Below, piece after piece: positions 53,610-63,243 of a stretch of DNA of 64,000 nt. The notes under the pieces were generated by a model. It had not been told where the DNA came from, ran no database searches, and was given only the letters and a program-made list of their open reading frames with translations. This DNA comes from Amycolatopsis tolypomycina (GTDB lineage Bacteria; Actinomycetota; Actinomycetes; Mycobacteriales; Pseudonocardiaceae). Positions within the stretch are counted from its first letter, which is position 1. Every line of letters starts with the position of its first letter. The DNA lies in assembly GCF_900105945.1 (NCBI RefSeq), contig NZ_FNSO01000004.1:496001-560000 (forward strand), written 5' to 3'. Position numbers and translations under genes: made by a program.

Positions 53610-55919
53610 ATGGCCGACGGGGGCGAACTGGTCAAGGCCACCGAGCGCTTGCTCGAGGGCAGGCACGGGAGGCTGGGGGCGTCCGCACTGCGGGCGGCCC
53701 TGGTCGACCTCTACGAGTTCTGGCTGGGCAGGGGAGCTTCGGCGGCCGGCGTCGACACCGCGGAACCGGGTGTCGCGCTGGTCGCCGTGGGCGGGCTCGG
53801 CCGCCGGGAGCTGGTGCCGTTCTCCGATCTCGACCTGCTGCTGGTGCACAACGGCAACAGCGGCGTCGGCGAGATCGCGGACGCGCTCTGGTATCCCCTG
53901 TGGGACGCGAAAGTCGGGCTCGACCACTCGGTCCGCACGCCGGGTGAGGCGCTGAAGGTCGCTTCGGAGGACCTGCGCGTGGCCATGGGCCTGCTCGACG
54001 CCCGGCACCTCGCCGGGGACGCCGAGCTGAGCGGCCGCCTGGTGTCCGCGGCGCGCGACCAGTGGCGGCGCACGGCGCGCAAGCAGATCCCGGACATGAC
54101 GGCGTCGGTCCGGCAGCGCTGGGCGCGCAGCGGCGAGATCGCGCAGTCCGCCGAACCGGACCTCAAGCACGGCCGGGGCGGGCTGCGGGACTTCGCCGTC
54201 CTGGAAGCACTGGCCGCGGCGCAGCTCACCGCGCGTCCGGGCGAGGAACTCCTGGAAGCGAAGGGACTCCTCCTCGACGTCCGCACCGAGCTGCGGCGCG
54301 AGATCCGGCGCGAACGGGACGTGTTGTCCGCGCCGGAGGCCGAACTGGTCGCCGCCGAGCTCGGCTTCGGCGACCGGTTCACGCTGGCCCGCAAGCTTTC
54401 CGGAGCGGGCCGCACGATCGCGTACGCGCTGGACGTCGCGCTCCGGTCCACTGTGGAGCCTCCACGGTCGCGCTTCGGGCGGCGTCCTTCGCGGACGCCG
54501 CTGGCGGAAAACGTGGTGCTGCACGGGAACGAGGTCGCGCTGGCCCGCGACGCGGTTCCGGCGAAGGACCCGGCGCTGCTGCTGCGCGTCGCGGCGGCGT
54601 CGGCCCGCACGGGCAAGCCGATCGCGCTCGGCACGCTCAAGGCGCTGGCCGAGTCGGCGCCGGAGCTGCGCGCGCCGTGGCCGGCCGAAGCGCTGAACGC
54701 GCTGGTCGAGCTGCTGGGCGCGGGCGAAGGCCTGGTCGACGCGGTCGAGTCGCTCGACCGCACGGGCCTGTGGTCCCGGCTGTTCCCGGAGTGGGGCGCG
54801 GTCCGCGACCTGCCGCCGCGCTCGCCGGTGCACCAGTGGACGGTCGACCGGCACCTGATCCGCACCTGCGTCGAGGCGGCCAAGCTGACCACCACGGTGT
54901 CGCGGCCGGACCTGCTGCTGATCGGCGCGCTGCTGCACGACATCGGCAAGGGCCGCGACGCGGACCATTCCGAGCTGGGCGCCAAGATCTCGGCCCAGGT
55001 CGCGGCCCGGCTCGGGCTGTCCGCGGCCGACGCGGCCACGGTGTCGTCGATGGTCCGCCACCACCTGCTGCTGCCGCACACGGCGACGCGGCGCGACATC
55101 AGCGAGCCGGCGACGGTGGCGCGCGTGGTGAAGACCCTGGACAGCGACATCGTCCTGGTCGAGCTGCTGCACGCGCTGACCCAGGCCGACTCACTGGCGA
55201 CCGGCCCGGGGGTGTGGACGGACTGGAAGGCCCGGCTGCTGGCGGAGCTGGTGTCGGGCTGCGAGGAAGTGTTGCACGGCAAGGGGTTCACGGCCCCGTC
55301 GCCGATGGACGACGAACAACGCGAGCTCGTCGCCTCGGCGGCGGCGTCGGGCACGGGCGAAATCCGGATCAGCTCGCACGGCAAGGTGGTGACGGTCCTG
55401 CTGGCGGTCCCGGCCCGGGCGGAGCTGCTGGCCCCGGCGGCGGGCGTGCTGGCCTTGAATTCTTTGGAGGTCCATTCGGCGGTCCTGCGCGGCCACGACG
55501 GCGGCCGGGCGGGGGTGTTCACGGCGTCGCCGAAGTTCGGGTCACTGCCGGACGCGACGTTGTTGCGCGAGCAGTTCGCCCGCGCGGTGGCGGGCACTTT
55601 GCCGCTGACCCAACGCCTGGCGGCGAAGGAGCGCGACTACGGGTCGCCGGCTCCGGTGGCGCCGAAGGTGCTGTGGTTCGACGACGAGACGACGGGCCCG
55701 GACACGGTGGTCCTGGAGCTTCGCGCGGCCGACCGGATCGGCTTGCTGTTCCGGGTGGCGGGCGCGTTGCGCCGCTGCGGCGCGGAGGTCCGCTGGGCCA
55801 AGGCATCAACGCTGGGCGGCGCGGTGGTGGACTCGTTCGCGGTGACACCGAAGAGCGGCCGCATCGAACCGGGCTGGCGCCGCGAGGTGGAGCAGGCAGT
55901 ACTGGCCGCAGCTTCCTGA
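53610..55919 (+). CDS. glnD: PII uridylyl/adenylyltransferase GlnD
   Basis: 769 residues. Nucleotidyltransferase domain: GGLGRRELVPFSDLDLLLVH with the catalytic DxD; then the HD phosphohydrolase motif LLHDIGKGRDADHSELGAKI, and two ACT domains at the C-terminus (residues about 600-769, VLELRAADRIGLLFRVAGAL). It modifies and demodifies GlnK according to glutamine. It follows glnK by nine bases. The end lies at a convergent junction filled by the 30-bp repeat family. Confidence 0.95.
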   Translation: MADGGELVKATERLLEGRHGRLGASALRAALVDLYEFWLGRGASAAGVDTAEPGVALVAVGGLGRRELVPFSDLDLLLVHNGNSGVGEIADALWYPLWDAKVGLDHSVRTPGEALKVASEDLRVAMGLLDARHLAGDAELSGRLVSAARDQWRRTARKQIPDMTASVRQRWARSGEIAQSAEPDLKHGRGGLRDFAVLEALAAAQLTARPGEELLEAKGLLLDVRTELRREIRRERDVLSAPEAELVAAELGFGDRFTLARKLSGAGRTIAYALDVALRSTVEPPRSRFGRRPSRTPLAENVVLHGNEVALARDAVPAKDPALLLRVAAASARTGKPIALGTLKALAESAPELRAPWPAEALNALVELLGAGEGLVDAVESLDRTGLWSRLFPEWGAVRDLPPRSPVHQWTVDRHLIRTCVEAAKLTTTVSRPDLLLIGALLHDIGKGRDADHSELGAKISAQVAARLGLSAADAATVSSMVRHHLLLPHTATRRDISEPATVARVVKTLDSDIVLVELLHALTQADSLATGPGVWTDWKARLLAELVSGCEEVLHGKGFTAPSPMDDEQRELVASAAASGTGEIRISSHGKVVTVLLAVPARAELLAPAAGVLALNSLEVHSAVLRGHDGGRAGVFTASPKFGSLPDATLLREQFARAVAGTLPLTQRLAAKERDYGSPAPVAPKVLWFDDETTGPDTVVLELRAADRIGLLFRVAGALRRCGAEVRWAKASTLGGAVVDSFAVTPKSGRIEPGWRREVEQAVLAAAS

Positions 55920-55940: not shown

Positions 55941-56073
55941 CAATGTGGCGTTGGTTGCGTCCAACGCACCGAACGCCACATTGGGTGCGCTGGATGCACC
56001 GAACGCCACATTGGGTGCGTTGGATGCACCGAACGCCACATTGGGTGCGCTGGACGCACCGAACGCCACATTG
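55941..56073. repeat. CCACATTG-type 30-bp repeat, locus 2
   Basis: An inverted first unit, CAATGTGGCGTTGGTTGCG (55941-55959), then four direct copies of CGCACCGAACGCCACATTG-like units ending at 55983+, 56013, 56043 and 56073, 30 bases apart. The spacers are nearly identical (GGTGCGYTGGAYG), so this is a tandem satellite, not CRISPR. The same family is at 18050-18122. It separates the convergent glnD and monooxygenase genes. Confidence 0.75.
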
Positions 56074-56085
56074 GGGCGCATGGGG

Positions 56086-57414: not shown

Positions 57415-58063
57415 CGAGGTTCTCCTTGCGGAGGTACCAGACGTGCCAGGCGATCAGCAGGCCCAGCGCGCCGAACCAGGCCAGGTTGGTGACCAGCGCG
57501 ATGAGGTCGATCGGGAGCGCGTAGACGAGCACGACGTGCAGCACCGCGCTGCCCAGCAGCACCGCGCCCCAGGCGGCGGTGTCGATCCGCAGCCCGCGCC
57601 GGAACCGGGCGTCGGTGTCCCAGCGGGCCGCCCACGCGTCCGCGCCCTCGGCGCCGCGCTTGACCTCGGCGATCGTGCGGCCGAGCGTCAGCTGCGCGGG
57701 ACGGCCGACGAAGACCGACACCAGCATCCACGCGCCGAAGAGGCCGCCCAGCGCCGCCGTCCAGCCTTCGCGGATCACCAGCGTGCGCGGGTCGTCCGAC
57801 AGCAGGCCGAGCACGACCGACAGCACCAGGACGCTGAGCGTGACCAGGGCGACCAGGTCGATCCTGCGGTTGCGGGCGATCGTCCACACCACGTACGGCG
57901 CGGCCACCACGATGCCTGCCATCAGCGCCCACCACTGGCTCACGCCCGCGGCACGCAGGCCGTAGAACAGGGCCATCGGCACGATCACTTCGAACACGAC
58001 GTTCCGCACGTTGGCGCGCACGACCCGCCGCAGCCCGGCGTCGGTTTCCTGCTCGGTCGTCAT
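57407..58063 (-). CDS. VC0807-like integral membrane protein
   Basis: 218 residues with about six hydrophobic helices, e.g. NVVFEVIVPMALFYGLRAAG, WWALMAGIVVAAPYVVWTIA, LVALVTLSVLVLSVVLGLLS and IDLIALVTNLAWFGALGLLI. The pattern matches the VC0807 family of unknown function, often found with TetR regulators. The ATG at 58063 overlaps the tetR stop (ATGA). The longer frame to 58684 is antisense to tetR. It may export or tolerate the substrate or product of the monooxygenase (inference). Confidence 0.75.
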   Translation of the reverse strand: MTTEQETDAGLRRVVRANVRNVVFEVIVPMALFYGLRAAGVSQWWALMAGIVVAAPYVVWTIARNRRIDLVALVTLSVLVLSVVLGLLSDDPRTLVIREGWTAALGGLFGAWMLVSVFVGRPAQLTLGRTIAEVKRGAEGADAWAARWDTDARFRRGLRIDTAAWGAVLLGSAVLHVVLVYALPIDLIALVTNLAWFGALGLLIAWHVWYLRKENLDA

Positions 58064-58662
58064 TCGGGTCCCCCGGTGGATTCGGGTGCGGTCGCCCGCA
58101 CGTAGAGGTCGGCGAGCTCGCGGCCGATGCGCGTGAGTTCGGCGGGCTCGGGCACGTTCGCCGCCGCGGTGGCGACGACGGCGTCGAGCCCGGTCGTCAA
58201 GGCGAGCGCCGTGATCCGGGCGTCGAAGGCGCCGAAGACGCCGGCTGCCTGCCCGGTGCGGAAGTGCTCTTCGAACAGCGCGAGCCGCCCGTCGACGGCG
58301 TCGCTCCGGGAGCCGGCGTTCTTGACGAGGTCGATCAGGGCCCGCAGCTCGGTGGCGTGCTCGCCGACGAGCTCGACGTTCGCCTCGACGAAGGCGCGCA
58401 GCTGGGCGACGTGCCCGACGGCGGCGTCGATGCGCGGCTGCATGAACGCCCCGGTGATCTCTTCGATCTCGGTGACGCACGCCTTGAGCAGGTCGTCCTT
58501 GCCCGCGAAGTGGTAGCTGATCATGCCGGTGCTCGACAGGCCCGCCTGCTTCGCGATCCGGCTGAAGGACGCCTTCGCGTACCCGGCCTCGGCGATCACG
58601 GCGATCGCCGCTCGCACGATCTGTGCTCGCCGGCCGGACTCGGTGAAGGTTCTTGCTCGCAT
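58060..58662 (-). CDS. TetR family regulator of the monooxygenase operon
   Basis: 200 residues. Helix-turn-helix: RAAIAVIAEAGYAKASFSRI and AKQAGLSSTGMISYHFAGKD; ligand domain from about residue 70. The ATG at 58662 is inside a perfect TTGCTC-gcat-GAGCAA palindrome, with a second near-palindrome just upstream, so the protein probably represses its own operon by binding over the start. Four-base overlap with the membrane-protein gene. Confidence 0.88.
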   Translation of the reverse strand: MRARTFTESGRRAQIVRAAIAVIAEAGYAKASFSRIAKQAGLSSTGMISYHFAGKDDLLKACVTEIEEITGAFMQPRIDAAVGHVAQLRAFVEANVELVGEHATELRALIDLVKNAGSRSDAVDGRLALFEEHFRTGQAAGVFGAFDARITALALTTGLDAVVATAAANVPEPAELTRIGRELADLYVRATAPESTGGPE

Positions 58663-58678
58663 GAGCAAAATTTAGCTC
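58653..58678. promoter_or_regulatory. Overlapping operators at the tetR start
   Basis: TTGCTC-GCAT-GAGCAA (58653-58668) is a perfect 6-bp inverted repeat; GAGCAAAATTTAGCTC (58663-58678) is palindromic except for one central-arm pair. They share GAGCAA and cover the tetR ATG, suiting two repressor dimers. The AT-rich core may also hold the -10 region. Confidence 0.6.
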
Positions 58679-58732
58679 AATCAAGCAAATTCGACAAGTC
58701 GCCAGGTCAGAGCCCGGATTCGGGGGCTTTGC

Positions 58733-60037
58733 TCAGGCGGATGCGGTGCCTTCGACGACCTGGTTGCGGCCCGCGTCCTTGGCCCGGTACAGGGCCTTGT
58801 CCGCGGCCTGCAGCAGCCGGTCGACGGCCGTGCCGCCGTCCGGGTAGGTCGCGACGCCGATGGAGGCGGACAGGCCGTCGATCGCACGGACGCGGCTGTC
58901 GTCCTCGTATTCGACCCGCAGGCCCTCGATCGCCGAGCGGATGCGTTCCGCCACCGCCAGCACCGCGGCCGGGCCGATGTCCGGCAGCAGGACCACGAAC
59001 TCCTCGCCGCCGAAGCGGCCGACCGAGTCGTAGTCGCGGACGGCGCTCTTGATCGTCGCGGCCACCGCGCGCAGCACCGTGTCGCCCGCCAGGTGACCGT
59101 GGCTGTCGTTGATCAGCTTGAAGTGGTCGAGGTCGATCATCAGCACGCCGAACGTGCCGTGCGTGTGGCGCTGCGCCCTGGCCAGTTCGCGTGAAGCGAG
59201 CAGGTGCCACCCGGTCGTGTTGAACAGGCCGGTCTTTTCGTCGGTCGTCGCCGCGATCTCCAGCTGCTTGATCAGCACCGCCCGGTGCAGCACCAGCAGC
59301 GGCGGCACGATGGCCAGGGTGAGCGCGGGCAGCGTCGCCAGCGTCAGGGCCGTCAGCATGCCCAGGCAGAGCGTCGCGACTTCGAGCAGGTTGTCGCCGA
59401 GGCCGCCGAAGAACGCCTTCACCGAGCGGGTCGTGATCGTCAGCGCCGGGATGATGGTGATCGCCGCGACCAGGAAGTACGTCACCGCGGCGAGCGCGAT
59501 CGCGGTGACCCCGCGCCACCCGGCCGTCAGCGCGGCGGACATGTCGCCGACCCCGAGCCACGCGAGCACCAGGTCGGCCGAGTAGCAGGTGACGACGACG
59601 AGCGTGGCGTTCAGCGTCGTCCGGAACGGCGGGACGCGCTTGATCCGCGCCAGGCTGCGCGTGGCGAGGTGCACGTACAGGACGGCGACCAGGGCGGCGC
59701 CGAGCGCCGGCGGCAGGAGCAGCACCCCGGCGAACGTCCAGACCGACGTCAGGTTGATGTGCGGGGTGTCCGACACGAGCCGCCGGACGCGTTCGACCTG
59801 CCGGCCGAGTTCGGCCTGCAGCACCCCAAGCCCGGCGAGGACGCCGAAGACGGCCAGGTCCCAAGCCCGCACGGGCACGGCCAGCGCCGTCCAGACGGTG
59901 GCGGCGAGCGCGACCGACTCGACGAGGAAGCAGTAGAAGATCAGCGATCCGCGCTGCTGCCAGAGGGTCCAGTGAGCAGGGTTCAACGCCCCACGGATCC
60001 GTCCCGCGCGGGGTTGGGCCGGACGGGCGCCGTCCAT
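58733..60037 (-). CDS. Membrane diguanylate cyclase (GGDEF)
   Basis: 434 residues. About six to eight N-terminal membrane helices (LIFYCFLVESVALAATVWTA, TFAGVLLLPPALGAALVAVL, GVTAIALAAVTYFLVAAITI, MLTALTLATLPALTLAIVPP) precede a GGDEF domain: DEKTGLFNTTGWHLL, MIDLDHFKLINDSHGHLAGD, and the active site GRFGGEEFVVLLPD. RDYD lies five residues before GGEEF, the position of the c-di-GMP inhibitory I-site RxxD. It makes c-di-GMP from GTP. No EAL domain. Start ATG 60037 or TTG 60043; a frame to 60358 runs antisense through the micro-ORF array and is rejected. Confidence 0.88.
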   Translation of the reverse strand: MDGARPAQPRAGRIRGALNPAHWTLWQQRGSLIFYCFLVESVALAATVWTALAVPVRAWDLAVFGVLAGLGVLQAELGRQVERVRRLVSDTPHINLTSVWTFAGVLLLPPALGAALVAVLYVHLATRSLARIKRVPPFRTTLNATLVVVTCYSADLVLAWLGVGDMSAALTAGWRGVTAIALAAVTYFLVAAITIIPALTITTRSVKAFFGGLGDNLLEVATLCLGMLTALTLATLPALTLAIVPPLLVLHRAVLIKQLEIAATTDEKTGLFNTTGWHLLASRELARAQRHTHGTFGVLMIDLDHFKLINDSHGHLAGDTVLRAVAATIKSAVRDYDSVGRFGGEEFVVLLPDIGPAAVLAVAERIRSAIEGLRVEYEDDSRVRAIDGLSASIGVATYPDGGTAVDRLLQAADKALYRAKDAGRNQVVEGTASA

Positions 60038-60153
60038 ACTCAAGGCGGTGCAACTCCCCTGGGTGATCCGACGATCCGCATCCACCCCACCACACCGGGC
60101 GCCCGCGATCGACGGTTGCCACACGTTCGGAGCAGTGAAGGGAGGCCGCCGCC

Positions 60154-60174
60154 ATGCGCAACCGCGAGTCCTGA
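60154..60174 (+). CDS. Micro-ORF 1, peptide MRNRES
   Basis: ATG CGC AAC CGC GAG TCC TGA, with GGGAGG eight bases upstream. First of five copies. Its start is ATG, as in copy 5; copies 2 to 4 use GTG. Confidence 0.6.
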   Translation: MRNRES

Positions 60175-60219
60175 GCCGTCGTGACCCCCTGTCCGTCCGT
60201 GCCGGGAAGGAGAGCCGTC

Positions 60220-60240
60220 GTGCGCAATCGCGAGTCCTGA
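60220..60240 (+). CDS. Micro-ORF 2, peptide MRNRES
   Basis: GTG CGC AAT CGC GAG TCC TGA, with AAGGAG seven bases upstream. The Asn codon changes from AAC to AAT, a synonymous change. Confidence 0.6.
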   Translation: MRNRES

Positions 60241-60285
60241 GCCCGCTGTGTGTCCTGTTCGTCCGTGCTCGAGAGGAGAGCTGTC

Positions 60286-60306
60286 GTGCGTAACCGCGAG
60301 TCCTGA
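60286..60306 (+). CDS. Micro-ORF 3, peptide MRNRES
   Basis: GTG CGT AAC CGC GAG TCC TGA, with GAGGAG seven bases upstream. The first Arg codon changes from CGC to CGT, a synonymous change. Confidence 0.6.
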   Translation: MRNRES

Positions 60307-60350
60307 GCCCGCTGTGTGTCCTGTTCGCCCGCGCCCGAGAGGAGAGCGTC

Positions 60351-60371
60351 GTGCGCAACCGCGAGTCGTGA
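60351..60371 (+). CDS. Micro-ORF 4, peptide MRNRES
   Basis: GTG CGC AAC CGC GAG TCG TGA, with GAGGAG six bases upstream. The Ser codon changes from TCC to TCG, a synonymous change. Confidence 0.6.
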   Translation: MRNRES

Positions 60372-60420
60372 CCCCGGCCGTACCCCCATTCCGTTCCCGT
60401 CCGAGAAAGGAATCGTCACC

Positions 60421-60441
60421 ATGCGCAACCGTGAGTCGTGA
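60421..60441 (+). CDS. Micro-ORF 5, peptide MRNRES
   Basis: ATG CGC AAC CGT GAG TCG TGA, with AAAGGA nine bases upstream. The second Arg codon is CGT and the Ser codon TCG, both synonymous changes. The array ends 30 bases before the convergent SDR gene. Confidence 0.6.
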   Translation: MRNRES

Positions 60442-60470
60442 ACCCTCGTCCGCCGGCCGGGTGGGACGCC

Positions 60471-61223
60471 TCAGGCGGTCGCGCCGCCGTCGACCACCAG
60501 GTCGTGCCCCACGGTGAACGCCGCTTCGTCCGAAGCCAGCCACAGCACCGCGGCGGCCACCTCGGCGGTGGCACCCACCCGGCCCAGCGGAATCGCGTCC
60601 TTCAGCCGCTCGGCGCGATCGGCGTCCGTCTCGCCGGGGCGCCGGGACATGTCCGTGTCGGTCGCGCCCGGGCTGACGGCGTTGATTCGGACGCCGTCGG
60701 CGATGTGGTCGCGCGCCGCCGTCCTGGTCAGCGCGCTCACCGCGGCCTTCGACGCCGCGTAGGCCGCCATGTTCGGCAGCCTGCCGTGCGCGCCGATGTT
60801 CGACGCCATGTTGACGATCGCGCCGCCGCCGTGTGCCCGCATGTGCGCGACCTCGTGCTTCAGGCACAGCCATGTCCCGGTGACGTTCGTGTCGAGCACG
60901 GCGCCGAAACCGGCCTCGTCGAGGTCCGCGGCCGGCGCCGGCGCCCCGAGGACGCCCGCGTTGTTGAACGCGACGTCCAGCCCGCCGTGCCGCGCGACGA
61001 CCGTCTCCACCATCCGCGCCACATCCGCGGAGTCGGTCACGTCGACGGTCACCGCGCTCGCGCCGCCGCCGATTTCCTTGACGGCCGACGCCAGCCGCTG
61101 CTCGTCGCGCCCGGCGACGACCACCGTGGCGCCCTCGTCCGCGAACGCCCGCGCCGTCGCCCGTCCGATGCCCGAGCCGCCGCCCGTCACCAGGACGACT
61201 TTGCCCGCGAAACGTGCCCCCAT
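60471..61223 (-). CDS. SDR family oxidoreductase
   Basis: 250 residues of the classical SDR family. NAD(P) motif VLVTGGGSGIGRATARAFAD, NNAG in LDVAFNNAGVLGAPAP, catalytic Ser in IVNMASNIGAHG and YxxxK in AAYAASKAAVSALTR, with C-terminal DLVVDGG. It reduces or oxidises a small alcohol/ketone. The ATG at 61223 follows AAGAAGG. It lies 23 bases downstream of the TetR gene on the same strand. Both carry a TATTnGAGAATGATC-like site upstream, so TetR probably controls this enzyme. Confidence 0.92.
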   Translation of the reverse strand: MGARFAGKVVLVTGGGSGIGRATARAFADEGATVVVAGRDEQRLASAVKEIGGGASAVTVDVTDSADVARMVETVVARHGGLDVAFNNAGVLGAPAPAADLDEAGFGAVLDTNVTGTWLCLKHEVAHMRAHGGGAIVNMASNIGAHGRLPNMAAYAASKAAVSALTRTAARDHIADGVRINAVSPGATDTDMSRRPGETDADRAERLKDAIPLGRVGATAEVAAAVLWLASDEAAFTVGHDLVVDGGATA

Positions 61224-61244
61224 CGTGTACCTTCTTTCTGGTCT

Positions 61245-61259
61245 GATCATTCTCGAATA
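61245..61259. promoter_or_regulatory. TetR-site copy upstream of the SDR gene
   Basis: On the minus strand this reads TATTCGAGAATGATC, nearly identical to TATTGAGAATGATC upstream of the TetR gene at 61852-61865. It overlaps the last codons and stop of tetR and lies 22 bases before the SDR start. Seen directly; a shared operator is inferred. Confidence 0.4.
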
Positions 61260-61834
61260 AGCAGGCGCAGGGCCTGCGAGACGGCCGCGTGCACCCGGTT
61301 CGCCGCGTCCGTGCCCTTGCCGAGGACGCGCAGGCCCTGGAGCACGGTGAGCAGGAAACGCGCCAGTGTCGCCGGGTCGCTGTCCTGGGGGAGTTCGTCC
61401 TGGGCCTTCGCGCGTTCCAGAGCCATGGTCAGTGCGACCTCGAGGGTGTCCCAGCTGCGTTCCACCACCCGCGCGACTTCGGGATCGTGGGGGAGCAGCT
61501 CGATCGCCGCGTTGACGACGAAGCAGCCCATTTTCGTTTCGTCGCCGAGGATCTCCGCCGTGTAGCCGTCGAAAAGACGGCGCACCGCGCCCACCCCGGA
61601 CCCCGGCTCCGACAGCTGGGCCATCACCCGTGCGTCGGTTCGTTCCGCGTAGCGCTTCAACGCCGTGACGTAGAGGTCGTGCTTCGTGCCGAAGGTGGCG
61701 TACAGGCTGGCCTTGGCGACGCCGAGGTGCGTGACGAGGTCGCTGACCGACGTCGCCTCGTACCCCTGCTGCCGGAAGAGCGTGAGCGCGCCGTCGCACG
61801 CTTCGCCGACGTCGAACTCCTTGACCCGGGACAT
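61247..61834 (-). CDS. TetR family transcriptional regulator
   Basis: 195 residues. Helix-turn-helix: EACDGALTLFRQQGYEATSV and SDLVTHLGVAKASLYATFGT; ligand domain with MGCFVVNAAIELLPHDPEVA, typical of the YxaF/LmrA-like group whose members often sit beside an SDR. The start ATG at 61834 is 18 bases from the conserved AT-rich site. It likely represses itself and the SDR gene downstream. Confidence 0.9.
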   Translation of the reverse strand: MSRVKEFDVGEACDGALTLFRQQGYEATSVSDLVTHLGVAKASLYATFGTKHDLYVTALKRYAERTDARVMAQLSEPGSGVGAVRRLFDGYTAEILGDETKMGCFVVNAAIELLPHDPEVARVVERSWDTLEVALTMALERAKAQDELPQDSDPATLARFLLTVLQGLRVLGKGTDAANRVHAAVSQALRLLIRE

Positions 61835-61851
61835 GATCGAAACCCTAGCCG

Positions 61852-61865
61852 TATTGAGAATGATC
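61852..61865. promoter_or_regulatory. Candidate TetR operator
   Basis: TATTGAGAATGATC, immediately upstream of the TetR start, with a matching copy (on the other strand orientation) before the SDR gene at 61245-61259. A 14-base match at both promoters of a TetR/SDR pair is good evidence of one regulon. Confidence 0.5.
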
Positions 61866-61955
61866 GGTCAAATATGCGGGCGGCGGTGTGTCGCGTCCGG
61901 TGACGCGGCGTGCGGTGGCACTATGGCTGCTTCGACCGGCCCGAGGGGGTGAGCG

Positions 61956-62318
61956 ATGCAGGATCGGCTGACGCTGCCGCCGACCGTCGTCGCCACCCAC
62001 TTGCGCTCCTGCGCTGAGGAACTCGCCGCCGGACTGCGCTGTGGTGGTCCGGGTGCCACGACGGCCGAGCTCACCGACGTCGTCGCGCAGCTGGTCGCCG
62101 GCCAGGAAGCCATCTCCCACGCGCTCGCCGGGCTCGCCGCCCGGGTCGAGGGTGGTTCGGACGCCCTGGCCGCGGCCCCGCCGCTGGATGTCGAGGTGGT
62201 CACCGAGGTGCTCCGCGCGGCCGCGATCGCCTCCCGGTGTTCCGCGGAGGCGCTCGACGAGGTCACGCCGTCGTTCGAATGTGTGAGCGAATCCGTCGCG
62301 CCTGACACCCGTTTGTAG
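61956..62318 (+). CDS. Small hypothetical protein
   Basis: 120 residues, mainly helical and rich in Ala, with regularly spaced Leu and Val (VVATHLRSCAEELAAGLRCG, LTDVVAQLVAGQEAISHALA, LDVEVVTEVLRAAAIASRCS). No membrane segment, no recognised motif. ATG preceded by GAGGGGGTGAG. It lies upstream of ku on the same strand with a 52-base gap; no overlap, so co-transcription is uncertain. The four-Cys content and helical pattern suggest a small cytosolic oligomer, nothing more. Confidence 0.6.
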   Translation: MQDRLTLPPTVVATHLRSCAEELAAGLRCGGPGATTAELTDVVAQLVAGQEAISHALAGLAARVEGGSDALAAAPPLDVEVVTEVLRAAAIASRCSAEALDEVTPSFECVSESVAPDTRL

Positions 62319-62370
62319 CTGTCGATCCGCCGCGGCCGCTGTCTAGCCTGGAGCTGCGGAGGTGGCACGG

Positions 62371-63243
62371 ATGCGCGCGGTGTGGACGGGCACGATCGGG
62401 TTCGGCAGTTACGCCATCCCGGTGAAGGCGTACAGCGCCACCGAGGAGCGGGAAATCCCGCTGCACCAGGTGCACGAGCCCGACGGCGGCCGCATCCGGG
62501 TCAAGCGCGTGTGCGAGGTCGACGGCGCCGAGGTGCCGCCCGAGGAGATGATCCGCGGCTACCCGGTCCCCGGCGGCGACGTCGTCCTGCTGTCCGACCA
62601 CGAGCTGGCGTCGCTGCCGATGCCGGGCCGCACGATCGCCATCCGCTGCTTCGCGCCGGTGTCCGACGTCGACCCGCTCTGGTTCGCGAAGAGCTACTAC
62701 CTCGAACCCGAGCCGGCGGGCACGAAGCCGTACGTGCTGTTCAGCGAGGCGCTCCAGCAGTCGGGCCGGCTCGCGCTGGTGACGGTGGCGCTGCGCCGCC
62801 GCGAGACGCTGGGTGCGTTGCGGGTGCGCGACCAGGTGATCATCCTGGAAACGATGCGGTGGCCCGACGAGGTGCGCACCCCGGACTTCCCGTTCCAGCA
62901 CGCCGACGTCGACATCCGCCCGGGCGAGCTGCGGCGCGCGGCGAACCTGGTCGAGGAGCTGACCGGCGAGTTCGACCCGGGCCGCTACCCCGACCGTTAC
63001 CGCGAGGCCTTCCACGCGTTGGTCCAGGCGAAGATCGACGGCGCCGAGGTGGTCCAGCCGACGGCGGCCGAGCAGGCCGAGGGAGTAACCCGCCTGCTGG
63101 CGGCGTTGCAGGAGAGCGCGGCCGACGCGGAGGACGCGCGCAACGCGGCGGTCACGAAGGCCAAGGCGGCGGCGGCGAGGGCCGCGAAGGCGCGCACGAC
63201 GGCGAAGCGAGCCGCGACACGCACCCGGTCGAAGACGTCCTGA
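62371..63243 (+). CDS. ku: Ku protein, non-homologous end joining
   Basis: 290 residues, a bacterial single-subunit Ku. MRAVWTGTIGFGSYAIPVKA at the N-terminus, LHQVHEPDGGRIRVKRVCEV, KSYYLEPEPAGTKPYVLFSE and the C-terminal core VEELTGEFDPGRYPDRYREA all fit. It ends in a Lys/Arg/Ala-rich DNA-binding tail. It holds broken DNA ends and recruits LigD, which is not in the window. The ATG at 62371 is chosen because GGAGG lies eight bases upstream; a GTG at 62362 would sit on the ribosome site. Confidence 0.95.
   Translation: MRAVWTGTIGFGSYAIPVKAYSATEEREIPLHQVHEPDGGRIRVKRVCEVDGAEVPPEEMIRGYPVPGGDVVLLSDHELASLPMPGRTIAIRCFAPVSDVDPLWFAKSYYLEPEPAGTKPYVLFSEALQQSGRLALVTVALRRRETLGALRVRDQVIILETMRWPDEVRTPDFPFQHADVDIRPGELRRAANLVEELTGEFDPGRYPDRYREAFHALVQAKIDGAEVVQPTAAEQAEGVTRLLAALQESAADAEDARNAAVTKAKAAAARAAKARTTAKRAATRTRSKTS

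Follow-up and report, generated by a model that had tools for sequence, protein, structure and literature searches.

A tandem array of five six-codon genes, each encoding the hexapeptide MRNRES, lies divergent from the gene of a membrane diguanylate cyclase (DGC) in the window, the 64-kb stretch of Amycolatopsis DNA (64,000 nucleotides) that was analyzed here. Comparison with related genomes places the array in an extensive family of very short actinobacterial peptide genes that has no name yet, and the system has the look of a novel form of peptide signalling in bacteria. These comparisons strongly support both selection on the peptide and its pairing with the DGC. Coding-level selection, tandem dosage, agreement of peptide type with DGC type, and linkage to an MFS transporter are all visible in the sequences.

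The MRNRES array and selection on the hexapeptide

The five ORFs are located on the plus strand at 60154..60174, 60220..60240, 60286..60306, 60351..60371 and 60421..60441, with start-to-start spacings of 66, 66, 65 and 70 nt. The first and fifth start with ATG and the other three with GTG, and all five end with TGA. The Shine-Dalgarno (SD) sequences are, in order, GGGAGG (60140-60145), AAGGAG (60207-60212), AGGAG (60274-60278), AGGAG (60340-60344) and an SD-like AAAGGAA (60406-60412), and they end 6-8 nt 5' of the start codon. A pattern scan of the 64-kb window gave five exact matches to RTGCGNAAYCGNGARTCNTGA, all on the plus strand, which confirmed exactly the initial annotation of five six-codon ORFs, each with its own SD, that all encode MRNRES and differ only synonymously. 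No further copies of RTGCGNAAYCGNGARTCNTGA were present in the window at up to 2 mismatches (mean in shuffled sequences, 0.01). In the rest of the genome, no MRNRES copies were found at up to 1 mismatch, and three scattered extra matches, each with 2 mismatches, appeared at up to 2.

The array sits between the start of the DGC gene (58733..60037, minus strand) and the end of a gene coding for an SDR oxidoreductase (60471..61241, minus strand). The latter is convergent with the array and occupies the place of the MFS transporter at many paralogous loci; it is not thought to be part of the peptide system. The intergenic stretch that separates the first SD from the DGC start codon (60038..60139) is strongly conserved across 25 aligned arrays and presumably holds divergent promoters. 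Scans of the locus for sigma-70 promoters and terminators gave no match, which says little for actinobacterial promoters. No co-directional gene lies 3' of the array in the window. The DGC start region (60035-60042) reads CATACTCA on the plus strand and TGAGTATG on the coding strand, and the same unusual, conserved start context is found at L079, L080, L081, L082, L083 and L086 (orthologs and one paralog), but not at L078. Elsewhere in the window, a 30-bp direct repeat (55966-56079; about 3.8 copies, 95% matches), whose unit encodes APNATLGALD in one frame, lies directly past the end of an ORF (53610-55919) that is GlnD-like by eye.

The MRNRES array was found in 26 of 80 Amycolatopsis genomes, with 4-11 copies per array, and these are exactly the 26 whose best DGC match is at least 85% identical. 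A total of 173 copies from these 26 genomes were pooled; one array spans two contigs and contributed only 3 of its 8 copies. All 173 copies read xRNRES-stop, with 59 ATG, 113 GTG and 1 GTT starts, the GTT (in L017) being the single lost start codon. In within-array comparisons, the first and second positions of codons 2-6 showed 0 differences in 5,340, the stop codon 0 in 1,602, and the third positions 761 in 2,670 (28.5%), while the 20 nt 3' of the stop showed 6,640 in 10,680 (62%). A strict SD (GGAG, GAGG or AGGA at -16 to -4) precedes 166 of the 173 copies, and a weaker SD precedes the other 7. The initial annotation had read the greater variability between copies as selection on translation of the hexapeptide, and had proposed a count of synonymous versus other changes across relatives, with non-synonymous changes or lost ribosome sites as refuting signs. 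That count places every difference within codons 2-6 at third positions, and neither an amino-acid change nor a lost ribosome site occurs among the 173 copies; the claims on variability and on selection are thus both supported in these 26 genomes.

Copies with changed amino acids would have shown up, since the scan of the relatives tolerated up to 5 mismatches in 20 nt. Copies broken by indels could escape such a scan, but there is no room for a whole overlooked unit because the largest gap between neighbouring copies is 95 nt. When up to 7 mismatches were allowed, the additional matches were all isolated and chance-like. The exact pattern GTGCGCAACCGCGAGTCNTGA occurred in 10 named records, 9 from Amycolatopsis and one a contig titled Afipia; the match in the latter (L041) is isolated and without SD, and it was rejected. 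Identical cores between spacers that differ at 62% would not readily result from gene conversion, and purifying selection acting on the MRNRES peptide is the natural reading of this pattern. The arginine codons are CGC or CGT only, with CGG in 0 of 346 in the pooled copies versus 37% in seven neighbouring genes, indicating a codon- or nucleotide-level constraint of some kind besides the peptide.

The copies also differ by their place in the array. ATG is the start codon of the first copy in 22 of 25 arrays and of the last copy in 25 of 26; the inner copies mostly have GTG, and the last copy carries CGT at codon 4. It is as if the inner copies had been renewed by unequal recombination.

In the six next orthologs of the DGC (63-80% identical), one or two tiny ORF copies are found in the same place. 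They encode MRNRDS (three genomes), MRNRET ending with TAG, MSNRDT, and MRNRES twice; in one genome with MRNRES the serine codon is AGC in place of TCC, and the peptide is unchanged. The six-codon length and the order Arg/Ser-Asn-Arg-acidic-Ser/Thr are kept in all six, and an SD-like purine run is present, although in two genomes it is merely a run of G. It is the peptide that is conserved here.

Diguanylate cyclases and a wider family of tiny genes

The presumed partner of the peptide is a protein of 434 aa. Its GGDEF domain matched Pfam PF00990 with 149 bits. The motif GGEEF is located at residues 343-347 and RxxD at 334-337, and GGEEF is invariant across 60 aligned DGC proteins. The N-terminal part has about six hydrophobic segments, followed by the GGDEF domain. 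Among solved structures, 48 chains match, nearly all in the GGDEF half only, with 8wcn_A matching from residue 145. This architecture and the catalytic motifs are those of sensor-type membrane diguanylate cyclases (GGDEF with an N-terminal membrane domain), and we know of none with a gene-encoded peptide ligand alongside. At E up to 1e-60, 105 of 150 genomes drawn from the taxonomic family, representing 32 of 46 genera, had a member of the DGC family; in a sample of the class, 47 of 296 genomes had one at E up to 1e-50.

Tiny ORFs were also found in the divergent position at paralogous and distant DGC genes, where they encode MCGRDN, MNGRED, MGNKDW and, three times, MRDRGN. In one set they were present at 28 of 28 loci, including rows of MRSRDN, rows of eight and ten xNRDN, MRSWDW and MRGVEY; one locus (L119) holds ten tiny ORFs. 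In a second set of 60 loci many, but not all, were positive (MATREG, MRGKDW, MASTKEQ, MRDKIW, SKDL cores, GKDWN and MRNRAW). In the taxonomic family to which Jiangella belongs there are rows of MRDNTWT, MRDTTWS, MRDNNWN and MRANSWD, and L198 is 100% identical to a Jiangella gansuensis protein. MRNHNW occurs three times on plasmid p1 of Pseudonocardia sp. DSM 110487 (NZ_CP080522.1). The next annotated gene past these ORFs (L223:1574-3487) codes for a prolyl oligopeptidase family protein, possibly a peptide-cleaving neighbour. At most loci the tiny ORFs have 5-9 codons, and within arrays residue 2 varies while the last four residues are constant, as in MHNRDN, MSNRDN, MANRDN and MTNRDN.

A fixed rule was applied to DGC-linked loci. 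The 169 homologs of the window's DGC are a non-random sample, 87 taken from homology searches and 82 hand-picked down the match lists; after exclusion of L169 at a contig end, 168 loci formed 100 clusters. A tiny ORF by rule has 5-9 codons, an ATG, GTG or TTG start and GGAG, GAGG or AGGA at -16 to -4, and lies on the divergent strand at -30 to +350 from the DGC match. Such ORFs were present in 74 of the 100 clusters, some of which look like chance ORFs (e.g. L159, L167 and L172), versus 12.9 ± 3.5 (maximum 22) in 100 dinucleotide shuffles, 14 in the reversed sequence and 9 on the opposite strand. Two or more ORFs sharing their last four residues (-30 to +650) were found in 29 of the 100 clusters, versus 0 in 100 shuffles, 2 in the reversed sequence and 0 on the opposite strand. 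Neither an MFS transporter nor an ORF by rule was found in 16 clusters; 4 of these (L074, L184, L192 and L193) hold a peptide ORF outside the rule and 12 do not. L087, from the same genome as the window, is an example of a DGC without either peptide or transporter.

The peptide type follows the DGC type. The 99 peptides were assigned by eye to 13 classes, one of them a catch-all. On a tree of the 99 N-terminal regions of the DGCs, a quick tree with long-branch warnings, these classes need 17 changes, versus a mean of 68 after shuffling and a minimum of 12. In DGC pairs from different genera with more than 60% N-terminal identity, the mean peptide similarity was 0.77 (35 pairs) and 0.91 (5 pairs). 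Paralogs within one genome had similarities of 0.20-0.50 by bin (51 pairs), no higher than distant pairs (about 0.3). The rank correlation between peptide and sensor identity was 0.24 over 4,851 pairs (permutation maximum, 0.12) and 0.17 between genera. The sensor half of the DGC correlates with the peptide only a little better than the catalytic half (partial correlations of 0.152 versus 0.068). As peptide and DGC are neighbours, shared descent would by itself bring their types into agreement, and it explains part of what is seen.

Two further arrangements were observed among these DGCs. At L238 (G215:C1:22000-40000), the MFS gene and the peptide-paired DGC are separated by another GGDEF protein of this family (38%), which faces the opposite way to that DGC. 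At L226 (G143), a frame on the DGC strand is open through the MFS gene, the array region and the DGC (1,146 aa), and the upstream stretch of L132/L133 is similar; this may be due to chance at high GC or to a fused transcript.

The MFS transporter and in-frame repeat precursors

Within the upstream DNA retrieved (0.3-2.1 kb), an MFS transporter was found at 60 of the 100 DGC clusters, on the strand of the DGC in all 60. The three transporters tested belong to PF07690, and the nearest NCBIfam models are those of an H+ antiporter and efflux proteins, all below their cut-offs. Tiny ORFs by rule occurred in 50 of the 60 MFS-flanked clusters versus 24 of the other 40 (Fisher p = 0.011), a modest link by the fixed rule. 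A later inspection by eye of the 10 MFS-flanked clusters without such an ORF showed a peptide ORF in each, which falls outside the rule owing to a weaker SD, a greater distance, a repeat precursor, or a length of 11-12 residues, the last three being less certain. In wider neighbourhoods (about 15-18 kb), of which 18 were hand-chosen and their genes called by a crude script, the transporter was present in 16, with its place or orientation changed in three (L224, L229 and L238). One of the two without it is L239, whose cluster representative L125 has the transporter. By these crude calls, no other gene family occurred in more than 4 of the 18.

A search of the window's own genome with the transporter only gave seven matches at E up to 1e-30, and all seven adjoin a DGC with peptide ORFs between. 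Four lie beside peptide-DGC loci already seen, while the other three loci were found by the transporter alone. These encode MSNRDG and MSNRDC; MRDKGW and MSDKGW; and a GDRET core twice, in different codons and in ORFs of 9 and 12 residues, the last locus being the least certain. The ORF scan at these three loci used a lax SD and both strands, and it also listed a few unrelated ORFs. The seven transporter loci and the window's array make eight peptide systems in one genome. No transporter is present at the MRNRES locus in the window's clade.

In one DGC clade (six tree rows, support 92), the same place is taken by one longer ORF in which a four-residue core is repeated in frame. The repeats are, by locus, RPNDW x3, RPTDW x3, STDW x6, PTDW x6 and SEWH x4, and a further precursor in the window's own genome (about C4:6.185 Mb) carries PTDW nine times. 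At L194, where the stretch is partly N, tandem ORFs have the core doubled in each, MRDTNWVLRDTNWSW. In-frame repeats (PTDW, STDW, SEWH and RDTNW) replace or join tandem ORFs at some loci. The spacing of the copies had earlier been taken to exclude a polyprotein; this stands for the MRNRES array but does not extend to the paralogous loci, some of which use polyproteins. Six relatives of the repeat precursors were found in the protein database, all annotated as hypothetical; PTDW is kept across them while the linkers vary, with the single exception of PTDR in P0122. Pfam and NCBIfam assigned the repeat precursors to no family, with one sub-threshold match to DUF6470 (E = 0.087), and no hydrophobic signal was seen in them by eye. 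Both tandem ORFs and in-frame repeats multiply short cores, which argues that the product would be a peptide of about 4-7 residues and that its dose matters.

A candidate peptide signal, its rivals and known systems

We propose that short signals are translated directly, exported by the MFS transporter and sensed by the membrane domain of the DGC, and we consider this mechanism as a whole somewhat probable from the genomic evidence. Each six-codon ORF would be translated singly into MRNRES without a precursor, and five copies would raise the dose of the peptide. Reiterative translation, as measured for mccA (PMC6495379), possibly aids this step and would suit high output here. A core may be released from the encoded peptide, and the efflux-type MFS transporter, the third gene of the module in many relatives, would carry the short peptide out; the window's clade, without a local transporter, may use one of the seven paralogous transporters. 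The N-terminal membrane domain of the DGC is predicted to sense the peptide and to set c-di-GMP synthesis, and the signalling would take place between cells rather than as self-sensing. Paralogous modules with other peptide cores would then form separate channels, eight of them in this genome. Translation in the cell, processing, export, binding to the DGC and c-di-GMP output, with its direction, are thus all predicted steps of this scheme.

The main rivals are an intracellular ligand and a modified bioactive product. In the former case, the cell that makes the peptide would also sense it, the peptide being an allosteric effector of the DGC that reports, for example, translation capacity or growth; the MFS protein would remove the peptide or have another substrate. 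This agrees with the lack of a signal sequence, by eye, in the precursors read, and with a clade that manages without a local transporter. However, the transporter is the most constant third partner, and the unlike peptide types of the paralogs resemble separate channels, which would be needless for self-sensing; we regard an intracellular ligand as unlikely. Somewhat more doubtful is that the ORFs are minimal RiPP- or microcin-like precursors, which an enzyme from another locus would modify and the MFS protein would export as a bioactive product, with the DGC as a regulator only. Biarylitide and microcin C precursors are encoded by genes of just 5 and 7 codons, many cores contain Trp, and the MFS proteins resemble efflux pumps, although below all model cut-offs. 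On the other hand, no co-travelling maturase was seen, since no third gene family exceeded 4 of the 18 neighbourhoods by the crude gene calls; the constant partner is a DGC and not a modifying enzyme; and cores as chemically diverse as NRES, KDW, TREG and GVEY are ill-suited to one such enzyme. A microcin C-like reading, which was considered for the C-terminal Asn of several peptides and the pump, is held unlikely, as the C-termini vary (N, S, T, W, Q, Y, D, G and L) and no third gene recurs.

The ORFs might also be incidental to a tandem-repeat RNA, non-coding or antisense, for example on the MFS-DGC transcript. They lie antisense between the MFS and DGC genes in 60 of the 100 clusters, so that transcription through them could interfere, and the bias against CGG would fit an RNA element. 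Differences confined to third positions, the swap of serine TCC to AGC in an ortholog, spacers that diverge to about 62% and the in-frame polyprotein versions at paralogous loci all speak against it. In addition, single array units show no more folding than shuffles (z +0.12 to +1.66), and Rfam 15 covariance models gave no match in 58000-62500 of the window at E up to 1; an RNA element is therefore very improbable. Leader peptides or attenuators, in which ribosome stalling controls a downstream gene, share short ORFs with a strong SD, and the Arg-X-Arg motif has been linked to macrolide-type ribosome stalling. But the gene that follows runs antiparallel to the ORFs, both in the window and in the 60 MFS-flanked clusters, there are up to 11 copies, the cores vary freely between paralogs, and polyprotein versions exist, which makes a leader peptide scarcely credible. 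Macrolide-type stalling at Arg-X-Arg was dropped, as there is no downstream gene. Among the three roles suggested in the initial annotation, the signal peptide is accordingly the one favoured, while the ribosome-occupancy sensor and the titrating leader RNA are disfavoured by the in-frame repeat ORFs at paralogs, the lack of folding and the lack of a co-directional gene in the window.

Leaderless communication peptides, such as the 8-residue RopB-activating peptide of streptococci, are likewise signals encoded without a leader, as the tiny ORFs here would be. The receptor of the RopB type is a cytoplasmic transcription factor, and that system is not known to have tandem arrays or a DGC. The receptors of RRNPPA/Phr pheromones are cytoplasmic TPR proteins that adjoin the peptide gene, whereas the constant neighbour here is a membrane GGDEF protein. 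The RRNPPA/Phr pheromones of Bacillota are secreted short peptides with receptors, and their propeptides, some of which hold several putative pheromones, are processed by extracellular proteases (PMC11343458). They are the nearest in logic to the present system. The differences are that the ORF here would be the peptide itself at most loci, that ORFs of 5-12 codons leave no room for the export signal of such precursors, and that the partner is a membrane DGC in actinobacterial hosts.

The precursors of microcin C and biarylitides are the nearest in gene size (PMC6495379; PMC13417212). The microcin C precursor gene mccA has seven codons, similar to the 5-9 codons at most loci here, and MccC serves as a dedicated export pump; reiterative translation is possible for ORFs of 2-8 codons, and microcin C itself is an antibiotic, with dedicated enzymes that attach a nucleotide to its precursor (PMC6495379). 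The present loci differ by the constant DGC partner and the tandem copies, and no nucleotide-joining enzyme was seen recurring among the crude gene calls of the 18 neighbourhoods. Biarylitide precursor genes, of 18 bp and five codons, evade automatic annotation, have motifs beginning with MR or MK, and depend on dedicated cross-linking P450 enzymes (PMC13417212). Their cores are different from those found here, and no maturase was seen recurring among the crude gene calls of the same 18 neighbourhoods. A 2016 review on quorum sensing in actinobacteria lists butyrolactones, nucleotides and generally cyclic or modified peptides as signals (PMC4748050).

A search of the open-access literature, which excludes subscription journals and preprints, gave no description of such a system among the matches listed. 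This agrees with the earlier statement that no described system of this kind was known. We hold it evenly balanced whether these loci represent an unrecognised class of peptide communication, in which genes of 5-12 codons, tandem or fused, would encode signals of about 4-7 residues, each with a dedicated MFS exporter and its own membrane DGC, giving many peptide-to-c-di-GMP channels (eight in this genome). In terms of how it acts, the system may prove to be a further branch of peptide signalling. If so, there would be a gene-encoded layer of peptide signalling in actinobacteria, the great antibiotic producers, which has escaped annotation because gene callers pass over ORFs this short. c-di-GMP enzymes would gain gene-encoded ligands, the family would supply naturally occurring peptide-receptor pairs in which the evolution of specificity could be studied, and its tandem and polyprotein versions would serve as natural experiments in signal dosage. 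Short synthetic peptides could then be added to cultures to test their effects on development and product formation.
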